Source: Marinitoga piezophila KA3
Lineage (GTDB): Bacteria; Thermotogota; Thermotogae; Petrotogales; Petrotogaceae
Assembly: GCF_000255135.1 (NCBI RefSeq)
Contig: NC_016751.1
Coordinates: 806,001 to 870,000 of the forward strand
Length of the DNA stretch: 64,000 nt
Reading direction: 5' to 3'
The first letter of the stretch is position 1. Every line of letters starts with the position of its first letter. Shown in pieces: positions 42,947 to 47,545 of the stretch. The translations under genes and the position numbers were made by a program. A model generated the notes under the pieces. It searched no databases, had not been told where the DNA came from, and saw only the letters and a list, made by a program, of their open reading frames with translations.

Positions 42947-42971
42947 AAAATATCGAGGAGGAGGTATAAAG

Positions 42972-43742
42972 TTGGATCTTTCTACTTTAATAGGATTGGG
43001 TTTGGCTTTTGTTGCTATATTAATTGGTGGATATTCAGGATTAGGACAATTATGGGATACAAACTCCTTCTTTATTACTGTTTTAGGTTCAGTTGGTGGT
43101 ATGATGATTGCTGCGCCAAAAGATATATCTTTTAAATTTGTAACAGCAATAATGATGGGAATAAAAGAACCTAAAATTGATTCGGTCGAAATTTTAAAAA
43201 CATTATATTCATTTGCAGAAAAAGCAAGAAGAGAAGGTTTAATATCCCTTGAAGCAGATCTTGAAGGCCTTGATAACGAATTTATGAAAGAAGGTTTAAG
43301 GGCTGCAGTTGATGGTACTGATCCAGAAGAAATAAGGAAAATCCTTGAAATAAAAATGGAGTTATTTGAAGCAGAACAGGGAAAATGGTCAGGTCTTTTA
43401 AATACCTGGGGCACATTAGCTCCGGCATACGGAATGATTGGAACGCTGATAGGTCTCGTTTTGATGCTTGGTAGTTTGAACGATCCATCTACTATAGGTC
43501 CTAATATGGCTATTGCTCTTATTACAACGTTATACGGTGCTCTTGTTGCAAATATATTCACCTTACCGATAGCCGAAAAAATAGGAAGAAGAACATCAAT
43601 ACAGGTAAATCTTTTAAGGATGATAACTGAAGGAATATTATCAATAGTTTCAGGTGAAAACCCAAGATTAATGGAAGAAAAACTAAAAGCATTTTTAAGC
43701 CCTGATGAAAAGAAAAAATATGAATCAGAAAAAGAAGGGTGA
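42972..43742 (+). CDS. motA: Flagellar motor stator protein MotA
   Basis: A 256-residue stator subunit with four membrane helices: a pair at about 3-50, and a pair at about 150-205 with APAYGMIGTLIGLVLML. The large cytoplasmic loop carries the conserved charges (EGL and DP.. segments, ARREGLISLE) that touch the rotor. The start is TTG at 42972 with GGAGGAGG upstream. motB follows after 5 bp. Lone stator genes are usual in this group, where other flagellar genes are elsewhere. Confidence 0.93.
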   Translation: MDLSTLIGLGLAFVAILIGGYSGLGQLWDTNSFFITVLGSVGGMMIAAPKDISFKFVTAIMMGIKEPKIDSVEILKTLYSFAEKARREGLISLEADLEGLDNEFMKEGLRAAVDGTDPEEIRKILEIKMELFEAEQGKWSGLLNTWGTLAPAYGMIGTLIGLVLMLGSLNDPSTIGPNMAIALITTLYGALVANIFTLPIAEKIGRRTSIQVNLLRMITEGILSIVSGENPRLMEEKLKAFLSPDEKKKYESEKEG

Positions 43743-43747
43743 TATAA

Positions 43748-44629
43748 ATGGCAGATAAATGTAAAAAAGATGAAGGGCCACCACCACCACCTGGTTGGCT
43801 GGCAACATTCAGTGATTTAAATTCGTTGCTTATGACATTCTTTGTTATGTTGTTCTCCATGGCAACAATTTCACCCGGTAAATTCCAGCAGGCAGCAGTA
43901 AGTTTTAGAAGTCCCTTTAGCGGAACGCCACCAAGTGTTTTGACGGGTGGAAAAAGTCTATCAGAAGAAAGCTTAATTACATCAAATCCTGGAATTAGAG
44001 TTGAACTTTTCAGACTACAGGACAATCCAAAGTATAAAGGAAGAATAACAATAGAAGAAAATGACAAAGGAACAATAATAAAAATGCAGGACATGGCATT
44101 TTTCGAGCCTGGTAGCGCTCAATTAACCAAAGATGCAAAAGAGTTGTTATATAAATTGGGTATAATTCTAATAGAACATTCAAACAATGCAATAGAAATA
44201 TATGGATTTACAGATGACAGACCGCCAAAAGAACAATTAATATATCCATCAAACTGGCATTTAGGAGCCGCGCGTGCAGCAAGTGTGGCAAAATTCTTTA
44301 CAGAAGAAATGAAAAAGAAAAGAACACTTGAAAGATTGGCAGAAGTAAAAGCCGGGAAATTTGATCCTGATTATTACTATAATCCTGAAAGATTCTATCC
44401 AATCTCAGAAGGAGATAAAGACATATTAAAAGATATACAAAAATTAAAATCAAACACCGAAGCAGAAAAGATGAAATTAAAAGAGGAATTTGAAAAAGGT
44501 ATAATAGATATTGCAACCTTGAAAACAAAAGAAAAAGAATTAGATGAAAAATACAAAAATGATCTTGATAGACTAAGACATCTATACAGAAGAATTGATT
44601 TATTGATTTTAAGACAGCGCTTGAGATGA
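43748..44629 (+). CDS. motB: Flagellar motor stator protein MotB with helical insertion
   Basis: A 293-residue stator subunit. A short N-terminus with PPPPPGWLATFSDLNSLLMTFF has the single membrane helix and the channel Asp23. The OmpA-like peptidoglycan-binding domain (about 105-290) has FTDDRPP and SNWHLGAARAASVAKFF. Between the latter and the last strand (RRIDLLILRQRLR, 281-293) lies an insertion of about 58 highly charged residues (222-279), predicted helical or coiled coil, not found in ordinary MotB. A weak A/T hairpin follows the gene. Confidence 0.9.
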   Translation: MADKCKKDEGPPPPPGWLATFSDLNSLLMTFFVMLFSMATISPGKFQQAAVSFRSPFSGTPPSVLTGGKSLSEESLITSNPGIRVELFRLQDNPKYKGRITIEENDKGTIIKMQDMAFFEPGSAQLTKDAKELLYKLGIILIEHSNNAIEIYGFTDDRPPKEQLIYPSNWHLGAARAASVAKFFTEEMKKKRTLERLAEVKAGKFDPDYYYNPERFYPISEGDKDILKDIQKLKSNTEAEKMKLKEEFEKGIIDIATLKTKEKELDEKYKNDLDRLRHLYRRIDLLILRQRLR

Positions 44630-44640
44630 TTTTTTACAAT

Positions 44641-44669
44641 CCAGAAAAAAAATCTTCATTTTTTTCTGG
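44641..44669 (+). terminator. A/T-rich hairpin after motB
   Basis: CCAGAAAAAAA pairs with TTTTTTTCTGG across a 7-nt loop. It is a weak stem with few G-C pairs, so termination may be partial. Confidence 0.5.
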
Positions 44670-44747
44670 TATATTCTATTTGTTAATTTCAGGTTAATTC
44701 ATTTATGTGAATATTTTAGAAAACTTTTTTACAGGAGGTATCCACAG

Positions 44748-44777
44748 ATGAGAAGAAGAGAGATATTATCAATTTAA
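44748..44777 (+). CDS. Nine-residue leader peptide MRRREILSI (candidate)
   Basis: A very short ORF with a strong site (ACAGGAGG, nine bases before the ATG) encodes MRRREILSI and ends with TAA. About 85 bases later comes an intrinsic terminator, and then the ABC exporter genes. Short leader ORFs before exporters (such as bmrB before bmrCD in Bacillus) sense ribosome-targeting drugs by stalling. That function is an inference here. Confidence 0.55.
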   Translation: MRRREILSI

Positions 44778-44796
44778 AAGTTAATAAAAATAAATA

Positions 44797-44885
44797 CGAC
44801 AACGGGAGAACTTTGCCTTTGTTTTTGAAAAAAGGTATGTGATTTTTTTGTCAATTTTTAACCCCGCGTTGTCGGGGTTTTTTTT
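44797..44885 (+). promoter_or_regulatory. Attenuator: terminator with competing upstream segment
   Basis: The terminator stem is AACCCCG (44860-44866) with CGGGGTT (44873-44879), loop CGTTGT, followed by T up to 44885. An upstream CGACAACG (44797-44804) is perfectly complementary to CGTTGTCG (44867-44874), which covers the loop and part of the 3' arm. The two pairings exclude each other, so this is a terminator/antiterminator switch between the leader ORF and the first exporter gene. Confidence 0.65.
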
Positions 44886-44918
44886 GTTGCCAATTTAACT
44901 TTCGGGGGTGATAAGTTT

Positions 44919-45869
44919 ATGAAAGAATTTTATAAGTATTTTTTTGATTTTCACAGATTATTACCAAAAAAGCTTTTTTATCAAAAAGTATTTCTTGATC
45001 TTTTATATGTTTCAAGAGAAATTATAAATCTTTTTATACCGATGATTTTTGGTAAATTGGTAAATTCTCTTGGAAGTGAAACAGTATGGATTAACCTGAA
45101 ATTGTTTATAATTGTTTATATACTAAGGGATTTAATAGGTGAAGGAGAAGGATTGTTCCGAACATCTTTAAATGATGTTTCTATACCTGCTTATTTTTAT
45201 CAGGTTTCTATTAAAAATGTTCTTAAGAAAAAAGATAATATTTCTCCTGCAAAAGAGATGGATAAGATTTTTGATTTTAGATATGCATATAGGTTTTTTT
45301 ATGATTCATTCACTCTTTTATTTGCATTATTGCCTTTGTTGCTTGTAGCATTTACTGTTATTATTTTCGTTCAAAATATAGTTATAGGAGTTTTAACGAT
45401 TATAGGCGCAATTTTTTTAACTTTCAGTGCAAATAAGAAGATGAAAGAAGCGTCAAAGGCTTCTAAATTTATGAATGATAGTGAATATAATGTTGCCGCT
45501 GTTGTGGAAGATGTTTTAAATGGATATCAGGAGATAAAGAGTTTTAGAAGTTTTGAAATACCTTTAAAATGGGTAATTGATGCTTATAAAAATTTAAAAC
45601 GTTCTTATATTGCATATGGAAATGTGGAATTAAAATATGCTGTTACCTATGAAATAATAAGTGTTTTATTAAAACCCATTTCGTTATTATATTTAGGTTT
45701 TATGATTTTTTCAGGAAATATGCAGGCAGGAAATGCTTTAGCTATAATGATGTATATCGACTATTTTAATGATTATTTTTCTCTTTATTTAGATGATATG
45801 GATTATATATCCTGGATGGTTGAAAAGGCAAAAACTGCTTATAATAAATATTTAAAGGAGGTTGCATAA
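44919..45869 (+). CDS. ABC exporter membrane domain protein (first half-transporter, no ATPase domain)
   Basis: A 316-residue protein that resembles the six-helix membrane domain of type IV (multidrug/lipid) ABC exporters: REIINLFIPMIFGKLV and later LMIFSGNMQAGNALAIMMYI. It stops where a nucleotide-binding domain would normally begin. A strong GGGGGTG site precedes the ATG. The ATPase gene begins two bases after its stop, in another frame with its own ribosome site, so the split looks real and not a frameshift. Confidence 0.85.
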   Translation: MKEFYKYFFDFHRLLPKKLFYQKVFLDLLYVSREIINLFIPMIFGKLVNSLGSETVWINLKLFIIVYILRDLIGEGEGLFRTSLNDVSIPAYFYQVSIKNVLKKKDNISPAKEMDKIFDFRYAYRFFYDSFTLLFALLPLLLVAFTVIIFVQNIVIGVLTIIGAIFLTFSANKKMKEASKASKFMNDSEYNVAAVVEDVLNGYQEIKSFRSFEIPLKWVIDAYKNLKRSYIAYGNVELKYAVTYEIISVLLKPISLLYLGFMIFSGNMQAGNALAIMMYIDYFNDYFSLYLDDMDYISWMVEKAKTAYNKYLKEVA

Positions 45870-45870
45870 T

Positions 45871-46650
45871 ATGTTTATATCTTTTGAAAATGTTGAATAT
45901 AAATATAATGAGACAGTGATTCTTGATAATTTTAATATTCAAATAAATAAAGGAGAAAAAATTGCTCTTGTAGGTTCAAGTGGTGAAGGAAAAACTACTA
46001 TTATACGATTGTTGTTGAAATTTTTAACACCACAAAAAGGGAGAATATTAATAGAGAATAATGATTTAAAAGATATTCCAGATGAGGAATGGTATAGAAG
46101 AATTGGTGTATTGAGTCAGAATGCGCATATTTTCAACAGAACATTAAGGGAAAATCTTTTAATAGCAAAACCATCAGCAACTGATAAAGAATTATTAGAA
46201 GCACTTGAAAGATCAGGCTTAAAGAAGTTTCTTGAAAAAAGAAATGGTCTTGAAACGCAACTTGGCAGTAAAGGTGTTGCCATTTCAGGAGGAGAAAGAA
46301 CAAGAATAGCGCTTACACGATTGTTATTAAAAGATCCAGAATTTCTTATTCTCGATGAACCGCTTGAAGGTGTTGATAAATTAGTGGAAAAAGAGGTTAT
46401 AGAAAATATCAGGAATTTTATAAAAGATAAGACTTTGCTTTTAATTTCTCATAGATTCAGCATTTTATCCTTAACTGAAGAATTTGCTGTTTTACAGGAT
46501 GGTAAGATTGTGGAAAAGGATAAATTCCATAATTTTTCTGAAAATAGTCTTTTAAAGAAATTTTTCAAGGCGGAAAATGAGCTTACTGAAAAATTCAGAA
46601 GGGGGAAGGAGAATGGGAACGCTGATAAAATGGATTATGAAGTCCAATAA
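45871..46650 (+). CDS. ABC exporter ATP-binding protein, stand-alone
   Basis: A 259-residue ATPase with all motifs: Walker A GSSGEGKT (35-42), Q-loop Gln83, signature ISGGE (138-142), Walker B FLILDEP (158-164) and H-loop His194. It is most like the ATPase domains of multidrug exporters (FENVEYKYNETVILDNFNIQI), which are usually fused to a membrane domain. The ATG at 45871 follows AAAGGAGG. The C-terminal 40 residues are basic and non-conserved, and overlap the start of the next gene. Confidence 0.9.
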   Translation: MFISFENVEYKYNETVILDNFNIQINKGEKIALVGSSGEGKTTIIRLLLKFLTPQKGRILIENNDLKDIPDEEWYRRIGVLSQNAHIFNRTLRENLLIAKPSATDKELLEALERSGLKKFLEKRNGLETQLGSKGVAISGGERTRIALTRLLLKDPEFLILDEPLEGVDKLVEKEVIENIRNFIKDKTLLLISHRFSILSLTEEFAVLQDGKIVEKDKFHNFSENSLLKKFFKAENELTEKFRRGKENGNADKMDYEVQ

Positions 46651-47545
46651 AAAACGTTATGTGGAAATAACTATACTTAATATTTGCGGTATTTTATCTT
46701 CAATTGCAATTTCTTATTCTGCTGTAATCAGTAAGGATATTATAAATTTTGCCATTGAAAAGAATGATAAATTTTATTTTTATTCAATTATATTTTTCTT
46801 TCTGGTTATTATAGGACATATTACATTTGGTATAAGCAAAGCATATGTTTCGTATTTTAAGGGAGGATATATGCACGATGCAGGAATATATACGTATAAA
46901 ACTATTATTAATAAGAATTTTCAGGATTTTATTAAAAAAACGCCTGCACAATATGCAGAACTTTCGTTAAGAACAGTAGAAAAGGTTGCAAATACACTTT
47001 CTAATTATGCAACTATGGGTGGCCTTGTTTATTTTTTCAAGTTGTTTATTTATATGAGCACTATTTTTGTTCTTGATTATTATTCGGGTCTGGCTTCCAT
47101 TTTATTTTCTATAATATTAATTTTATTATTATTGGGTTCAAATGCCTATTATTATCCAAGAAGCAAAAAATTAAATGATCTGGAATTGGAAGTAAAGGAA
47201 TATGTTTCAGATATGTTTGCAGGAAAATTTGAAAGTGCTCTTTTTAATGCTATAGATCATGAAATGGTTTCTTATAATAATTATGTAAAAGATTACTGGA
47301 AAAGATTAAGAAAGCTATATATAATCGATTTATTATATTCAAATACTTCAAGACGTTTTATTTCAACATTGTTTTATTTTTATATTGTTTATAGAGGAAT
47401 TAAATTAAATGATGTAGGAAAATTGTATTCTATGACAACTATATTTATTATGATAAGAATGCAACTTTATAATGCAATGGGGGCCTGGCATGCTATAAGA
47501 GAGGGTATGATAGCTGCAAAACAATTGGAAGAATTTGTTGGATAA
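46613..47545 (+). CDS. ABC exporter membrane domain protein (second half-transporter, no ATPase domain)
   Basis: A 310-residue protein with about six membrane helices, related in plan to the first membrane protein of the operon but clearly divergent. It also ends before any ATPase domain (AWHAIREGMIAAKQLEEFVG then stop), and a terminator follows. The start at 46613 is chosen from AAGGAGA upstream; the longer in-frame start lies within the ATPase gene. With a single ATPase gene in between, the complex may be two unlike membrane subunits on an ATPase homodimer. Confidence 0.82.
   Translation: MGTLIKWIMKSNKKRYVEITILNICGILSSIAISYSAVISKDIINFAIEKNDKFYFYSIIFFFLVIIGHITFGISKAYVSYFKGGYMHDAGIYTYKTIINKNFQDFIKKTPAQYAELSLRTVEKVANTLSNYATMGGLVYFFKLFIYMSTIFVLDYYSGLASILFSIILILLLLGSNAYYYPRSKKLNDLELEVKEYVSDMFAGKFESALFNAIDHEMVSYNNYVKDYWKRLRKLYIIDLLYSNTSRRFISTLFYFYIVYRGIKLNDVGKLYSMTTIFIMIRMQLYNAMGAWHAIREGMIAAKQLEEFVG

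Follow-up and report, generated by a model that had tools for sequence, protein, structure and literature searches.

A candidate ribosome-mediated transcription attenuator upstream of a three-gene ABC exporter in Marinitoga piezophila and other Thermotogota

The exporter locus and its leader region

The window analyzed here is a stretch of 64,000 nucleotides from Marinitoga piezophila KA3 (contig NC_016751.1, positions 806,001 to 870,000), whose genome comprises 2.24 Mb in two contigs (2,231,407 and 13,386 bases). It carries an ABC exporter operon located between motB, which ends at 44629, and the convergent ppdK (Table 1). As a preliminary description of this DNA had reported, the exporter is split, with a transmembrane (TMD) subunit, an ATP-binding subunit (NBD), and a second TMD subunit encoded by separate genes, and all complete exporter operons seen in this study contain two TMD genes for one NBD gene. 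This TMD-NBD-TMD layout with a single separate NBD gene (window 44919-47545; loci L038, L040, and L041) is unusual for type IV exporters because these mostly fuse TMD and NBD. The AlphaFold model of the first TMD subunit (pLDDT 78) has TM287/288 and PCAT1 as top PDB matches, its structural match list further including TmrAB, EfrCD, and BmrA, and the closest solved chains for the NBD are of the ABCB/MDR type. The modeled fold is that of drug/peptide exporters, and the fold together with the regulation discussed below suggests drug export by this operon.

Upstream of the exporter, the preliminary description had pointed to a 9-codon open reading frame (ORF) with a strong ribosome site, and to an 8-nt segment perfectly complementary to the loop and 3' arm of a terminator. 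These elements are present as described, the complement being exact; only the spacing is corrected, since the segment begins 19 nt, and not 20 bases, past the leader stop. The terminator was also listed independently by a terminator scan.

Several side observations were made around the leader. The motAB genes (window 42970-44627) are duplicated, with 97% identity over 1,658 bp to G000:C2:1989938-1991595, where a fliL-like gene comes after motB. Upstream of the leader, a 27-nt AT-rich stretch (44704-44730) of the type GTGAATATTTTAGAAAACTTTTTT is matched at 93% by positions 1501-1527 of locus L003, which precede a gene resembling pnp; this similarity may be due to chance. Right behind the U tract of the terminator, the sequence GTTGCnAATTT is kept in most leaders, and in some of them it can pair partly with the antiterminator strand.

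Table 1. Positions of the leader elements and exporter genes in the window
Feature	Position	Strand	Basis or remark
Candidate extended -10 promoter element TGGTATATT, -10 = TATATT	44670..44675	+	Read from sequence; weak, without good -35
Shine-Dalgarno (SD) AGGAGGT of leader ORF	44733..44739	+	Sequence; SD-like sequence in 7/7 leaders
Leader ORF MRRREILSI-stop (ATG 44748, TAA end 44777)	44748..44777	+	Arg/Lys-X-Arg/Lys (+X+) motif at residues 2-4; S-I-UAA end
Antiterminator strand CGACAACG	44797..44804	+	All eight pairs kept in 7/7 leaders; starts at leader nt 49-51
Spacer with hairpin of GCCUUUG...AAAAAGGU type	44805..44859	+	Length (about 57-119 nt) and sequence vary
Intrinsic terminator AACCCCG/CGGGGTT, hexaloop CGTTGT, U tract	44860..44885	+	Stem-loop 44860-44879, T tract to 44885
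Terminator loop and first 2 nt of 3' arm, CGTTGTCG	44867..44874	+	Exact complement of antiterminator strand
GTTGCCAATTT after U tract	44886..44896	+	Alike in most relatives
Shine-Dalgarno of first exporter gene	44904..44910	+	Sequence; ATG at 44919
ABC exporter TMD subunit 1, type IV exporter fold	44919..45869	+	PF00664 E 4.8e-9; AlphaFold model
ABC exporter ATP-binding subunit (NBD)	45862..46650	+	PF00005 E 4.7e-32
ABC exporter TMD subunit 2	46577..47545	+	PF00664 E 1.1e-4, below curated cutoff; position kept in relatives

Distribution and covariation of the leader

A protein search of 103 Thermotogota genomes recovered the orthologous TMD-NBD-TMD operon in nine of them and did not recover it in the remaining members of the genus and family of the window. 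The eight other carriers belong to one single other family and include two Thermosipho metagenome-assembled genomes, the named relatives, in agreement with the Thermotogota-like origin that the preliminary description had guessed. The same leader anatomy precedes seven of the nine orthologous exporters (the window and six of the eight relatives), and the leader ORF, the intrinsic terminator, and the predicted antiterminator pairing are each present in all seven. Their peptides in the relatives read MRKNKNFFRTI, MRKSKFVFGTI (twice), MRKIRIFSETI, MRKIRTFSETI, and VRKIKTYSKTI, each with a Shine-Dalgarno sequence, and promoters of the TTGACA-N17-TATTAT type lie shortly 5' of the leader. Their antiterminator strand is CGGCAACC or CGACAACT, 12 to 14 nt past the leader stop, and their terminators have GGTTGC or AGTTGT as loop and GCCCCG/CGGGGC or GCTCCG/CGGAGC as stem. 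In all seven cases the terminator lies between the leader ORF and the exporter, 35 to 41 nt upstream of the exporter start codon, and the distance from the leader start codon to the antiterminator strand is constant (nt 49-51) despite ORFs of 9 or 11 codons.

A sequence profile running from the Shine-Dalgarno sequence to the antiterminator strand retrieved exactly the seven loci from the 103 genomes with E values no higher than 1e-11. The next hit came from the window genome (E = 1.6e-4) and the others were weaker, and we regard all of these as noise. An Rfam search gave nothing near gathering scores for window positions 44600-45000 and nothing in five relatives.

The two remaining orthologues (L008 in G060 and L009 in G054), from sister genomes, have the exporter without leader ORF, antiterminator, or terminator. 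A strong promoter and a 4-codon ORF led by a Shine-Dalgarno sequence (GTG ATT ATC AAT TAA) still lie upstream of them; the upstream ORF (uORF) of vmlR encodes MIN (PMC9226507). At another locus (L026/L093, G068), the leader and terminator are intact and the first exporter gene is broken by stops or a frameshift. Transposase genes lie 5' of the exporter in G066 (L040, 1029-3212), consistent with movement of the operon.

Alignment of the seven leaders, from the window and the six relatives of another family, provided the comparative test that the preliminary description had set for its own refutation, and both the leader ORF and the pairing came through it with compensatory changes. The eight antiterminator pairs are standard pairs in 56 of 56 cells, and two of them change on both sides (G-C/A-U and C-G/G-C/U-A). 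The covariation score of this helix reached 0.250 (0.091 for shuffles), and shifted registers of the pairing were at most 52% paired. The terminator stem covaries too. The closing pair of the loop itself could be an alternative cause of such co-change; in the window, this closing pair is broken, yet each of its two bases keeps its partner in the upstream strand. Seven of seven leader terminators, vs 1 of 45 other terminators of the same set of loci (an AT-rich match), are preceded by an 8-nt sequence complementary to their loop region. It is this comparative evidence, pairing in seven of seven with compensatory changes vs 1 of 45, that takes the helix beyond chance. Covariation supports the antiterminator pairing, and the geometry of the two helices suggests that antiterminator and terminator exclude each other.

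Leader peptides and ribosome position

The seven leader ORFs have 9 to 11 codons, in frame, with a Shine-Dalgarno sequence and an ATG or GTG start. Frame, the M-R-[K/R] start (one with V for a GTG start), and the [S/T]-I-UAA end are kept in all seven peptides, and the middle varies. Arg/Lys-X-Arg/Lys within residues 2 to 5 occurs in 7/7 leaders vs 11 of 212 ordinary ORFs (5.2%), the seven motifs being homologous and hence not seven independent events. It corresponds to the arrest motif for ketolides and macrolides that was defined with ErmDL (PMC8298421) and that Mef(E)L, ErmKL, and MsrAL also contain (PMC4335068). Homology to the Firmicutes leaders of the MTxSMRLR type was not found in a comparison with the peptides of PMC4335068, the motif alone being in common. 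Its presence in all seven leaders fits drug sensing, a reading that is plausible.

The macrolide site of the 23S rRNA in the window genome reads GACGGAAAGACC, which we take to be the unmodified A2058/A2059 sequence (23S numbering), so that macrolide-class drugs should be able to bind. Chloramphenicol and linezolid prefer Ala, Ser, or Thr at the penultimate position of the peptide. The conserved penultimate Ser/Thr of the leaders fits this preference, and thus a second stall point at the leader stop codon, as in MsrDL, is possible.

Folding predictions gave a less simple picture than the two-state switch implied by the preliminary description. On the window alone, the RNAfold check that it had called for says little: the single-sequence fold of the window region is no better than shuffles (z -0.60) and does not display the antiterminator. 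In each of the seven leaders, the terminator is predicted to be the more stable structure, exceeding the antiterminator by 1.5 kcal/mol (window) to 16 kcal/mol, and this preference holds with or without a ribosome at codon 3, codon 4, or the last codon. When the ribosome was moved through all positions, at either 37 or 65°C, the computed cost of opening the antiterminator strand followed no consistent trend, and ribosome placement had no consistent effect on the predicted fold. For a classical three-way switch, partners of the antiterminator strand were sought in the 5' untranslated region and ORF, in the spacer, and after the terminator; no conserved anti-antiterminator was found in these regions (Fisher P = 0.14, 0.21, and 0.08, respectively). 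A simple two-state switch is likewise unsupported, as the terminator wins whether or not a ribosome is present and no anti-antiterminator is conserved.

Ribosome positions do not account for the toggling. If the toeprint is taken to fall 15 nt 3' of the first base in the P site, a ribosome at the stop codon would have its front edge 3 to 5 nt short of the antiterminator strand in the leaders of the six relatives and 10 nt short of it in that of the window, and a ribosome arrested at codon 4 would leave ~24 nt free. Of five relatives tested, four have a spacer hairpin that outdoes shuffles (z -2.7 to -4.4), unlike the window (z -0.4); the hairpin could serve for pausing, a role proposed in the case of vmlR, or bring both strands together.

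Proposed attenuation model and its alternatives

We propose, with somewhat more confidence than doubt, that a ribosome-mediated transcription attenuator controls the three-gene ABC exporter through stall-induced antitermination, the inducers probably being translation-blocking drugs. By default, RNA polymerase would halt at the intrinsic terminator and not reach the exporter genes. Upon exposure to a macrolide-type drug, or upon a general translation slow-down, a ribosome would stall near the start of the leader ORF, most likely on Arg/Lys-X-Arg/Lys, and the freed 8-nt segment would engage in the covarying helix with the terminator loop and the top of the 3' arm, hence allowing transcription to enter the exporter genes. 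The weakest step of this model is how the ribosome would bias the pairing, for which our guess is a kinetic or steric effect. A ribosome that has reached the end of the ORF, with its edge 3 to 5 nt (10 nt in the window) off the segment, could hinder the long-range helix, and one arrested at codons 3 to 5 would leave >20 nt free; it is because of these distances that we prefer, as an unproven option, an effect of the terminating ribosome.

Several lines of evidence argue for this attenuator. Among 103 Thermotogota genomes, the leader anatomy is exclusive to these exporters; the pairing holds in every cell of the alignment, with two double-sided compensatory pairs and a covarying terminator stem; the peptide ends and frame are kept, the arrest motif is present throughout, and the start-to-antiterminator distance is constant; and the unmodified sequence of the 23S site, the drug/peptide exporter fold, and published analogues point the same way. 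Against it stand the more stable terminator in 7/7 leaders, the lack of a consistent freeing of the segment by ribosome placement, and the missing conserved anti-antiterminator, to which are added the late appearance of the loop/3'-arm pairing during transcription, the weak promoter of the window, and the homology of the arrest motifs. Moreover, a classical attenuator needs its antiterminator strand to be hidden during normal translation, and no cause for hiding was found here. Of the drug- or translation-sensing attenuator put forward in the preliminary description, the leader ORF and the pairing are confirmed by their conservation, the drug-sensing reading gains support from the arrest motif, and the simple two-state switch is not supported.

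The exact fit of the segment to the hexaloop plus two bases, leaving out the 5' arm, would also suit a pseudoknot or kissing helix in which the segment docks on the terminator loop with the stem intact, tuning termination efficiency or shielding the short RNA that termination leaves, with the leader ORF perhaps only indirectly involved. The thermodynamic preference for the terminator, the absence of an anti-antiterminator, and spacer hairpins able to bring the strands together go in the same direction. However, the top of the stem must open, since the segment's invariant 5' CG has its partners in the 3' arm, and docking leaves the link to a conserved translated ORF without explanation; we consider it unlikely. 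The ORF itself could serve as a generic translation sensor, any loss of its translation raising read-through with no particular drug being recognized, as its strong Shine-Dalgarno sequence, the freely varying middle of the peptide, and the indifference of the fold to stall position would allow. The selective conservation of M-R-[K/R], of the +X+ motif, and of [S/T]-I-UAA speaks against such indifference to the peptide and makes this sensor rather improbable.

Since Arg/Lys codons open the leaders, with RRR in the window, ribosomes waiting for Arg or Lys tRNA as in Trp-type attenuation were also envisaged. This is very improbable: the relatives have no single-amino-acid run (R-K-x-K/R), the operon encodes an exporter and not a biosynthetic pathway, and trp-type logic would require a ribosome on the stop codon to cover the segment, for which the 12 to 19 nt between stop and segment are too many. 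Finally, an ordinary terminator lying by chance behind an unrelated short ORF would be compatible with a single-sequence fold no better than shuffles and with the occurrence of 8-nt complements upstream of ~2% of terminators by chance, but is scarcely credible given the conservation and compensatory changes across two families and the exclusive association with this exporter.

To our knowledge, it is chiefly in Firmicutes that leader peptides sensing drugs have been described, and our literature search, although not exhaustive, found no drug-sensing leader-peptide attenuator described in Thermotogota, as the preliminary description had stated. The proposed mode of action matches that of the mef(E)/mel, erm(K), vmlR, and bmrBCD attenuators. 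The closest known system is the mef(E)/mel attenuator (Mega), in which the leader peptide Mef(E)L, MTASMRLR, precedes the efflux operon, MTHSMRLR being the related peptide of erm(K)/erm(D) (PMC4335068). Both systems combine a short +X+ leader peptide, a strong Shine-Dalgarno sequence, an intrinsic terminator, and downstream efflux genes, and in both a long, hairpin-bearing spacer separates the terminator region from a segment past the ORF (6 nt there, 12 to 19 nt here) with which it pairs. In mef(E)/mel, however, the segment is sequestered by a stem-loop (R1/R2) containing the ORF, no such stem-loop being conserved here, and the target includes the poly-U tract instead of the hexaloop and two bases; the two show no sequence relation. 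The bmrBCD operon of Bacillus subtilis (PMC4191407) is also an ABC exporter under a ribosome-mediated transcription attenuator, and its BmrB leader, with an antiterminator predicted to be less stable than the terminator, is a precedent for this order of stabilities. BmrB is nevertheless a long leader, with terminator and antiterminator within the coding region, whereas here they lie downstream of a 9- to 11-codon ORF.

The vmlR leader of Bacillus (PMC9226507) shares a tiny uORF, a middle hairpin, an intrinsic terminator, and an antiterminator with the leaders described here, but its anti-antiterminator contains the uORF, an arrangement not found here, and its target gene encodes an ABC-F factor. 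MsrDL (MYLIFM-UAA, PMC10314930) is similarly short, ends with UAA, and is followed by an intrinsic terminator before the msrD resistance gene; the stalled ribosome is thought to act there directly on the terminator, which is 80 to 150 nt away in the present case. The uORFC-6-1 motif upstream of hflX in Bacillales (PMC8632094) is, like ours, a comparatively predicted uORF with Arg-Leu-Arg and a covarying RNA structure, but its gene and phylum differ and its structure overlaps the uORF.

The attenuator type itself is thus already known, and the strand-to-loop/3'-arm geometry without anti-antiterminator differs from textbook attenuators. A tentative hypothesis, to which we give limited weight, could be a loop-directed antitermination in which no anti-antiterminator takes part and the position of the ribosome alone decides, kinetically or sterically, if the upstream 8-nt strand enters the terminator by way of its loop, and which senses macrolide-like compounds in thermophilic vent bacteria. 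If the proposed attenuator is true, the leader geometry would work at 60 to 75°C in the early-branching, thermophilic Thermotogota and could constitute a compact system for probing how ribosome position influences termination. The conserved +X+ leader would then suggest that deep-sea-vent bacteria meet ribosome-targeting compounds and possess inducible pumps directed against them.
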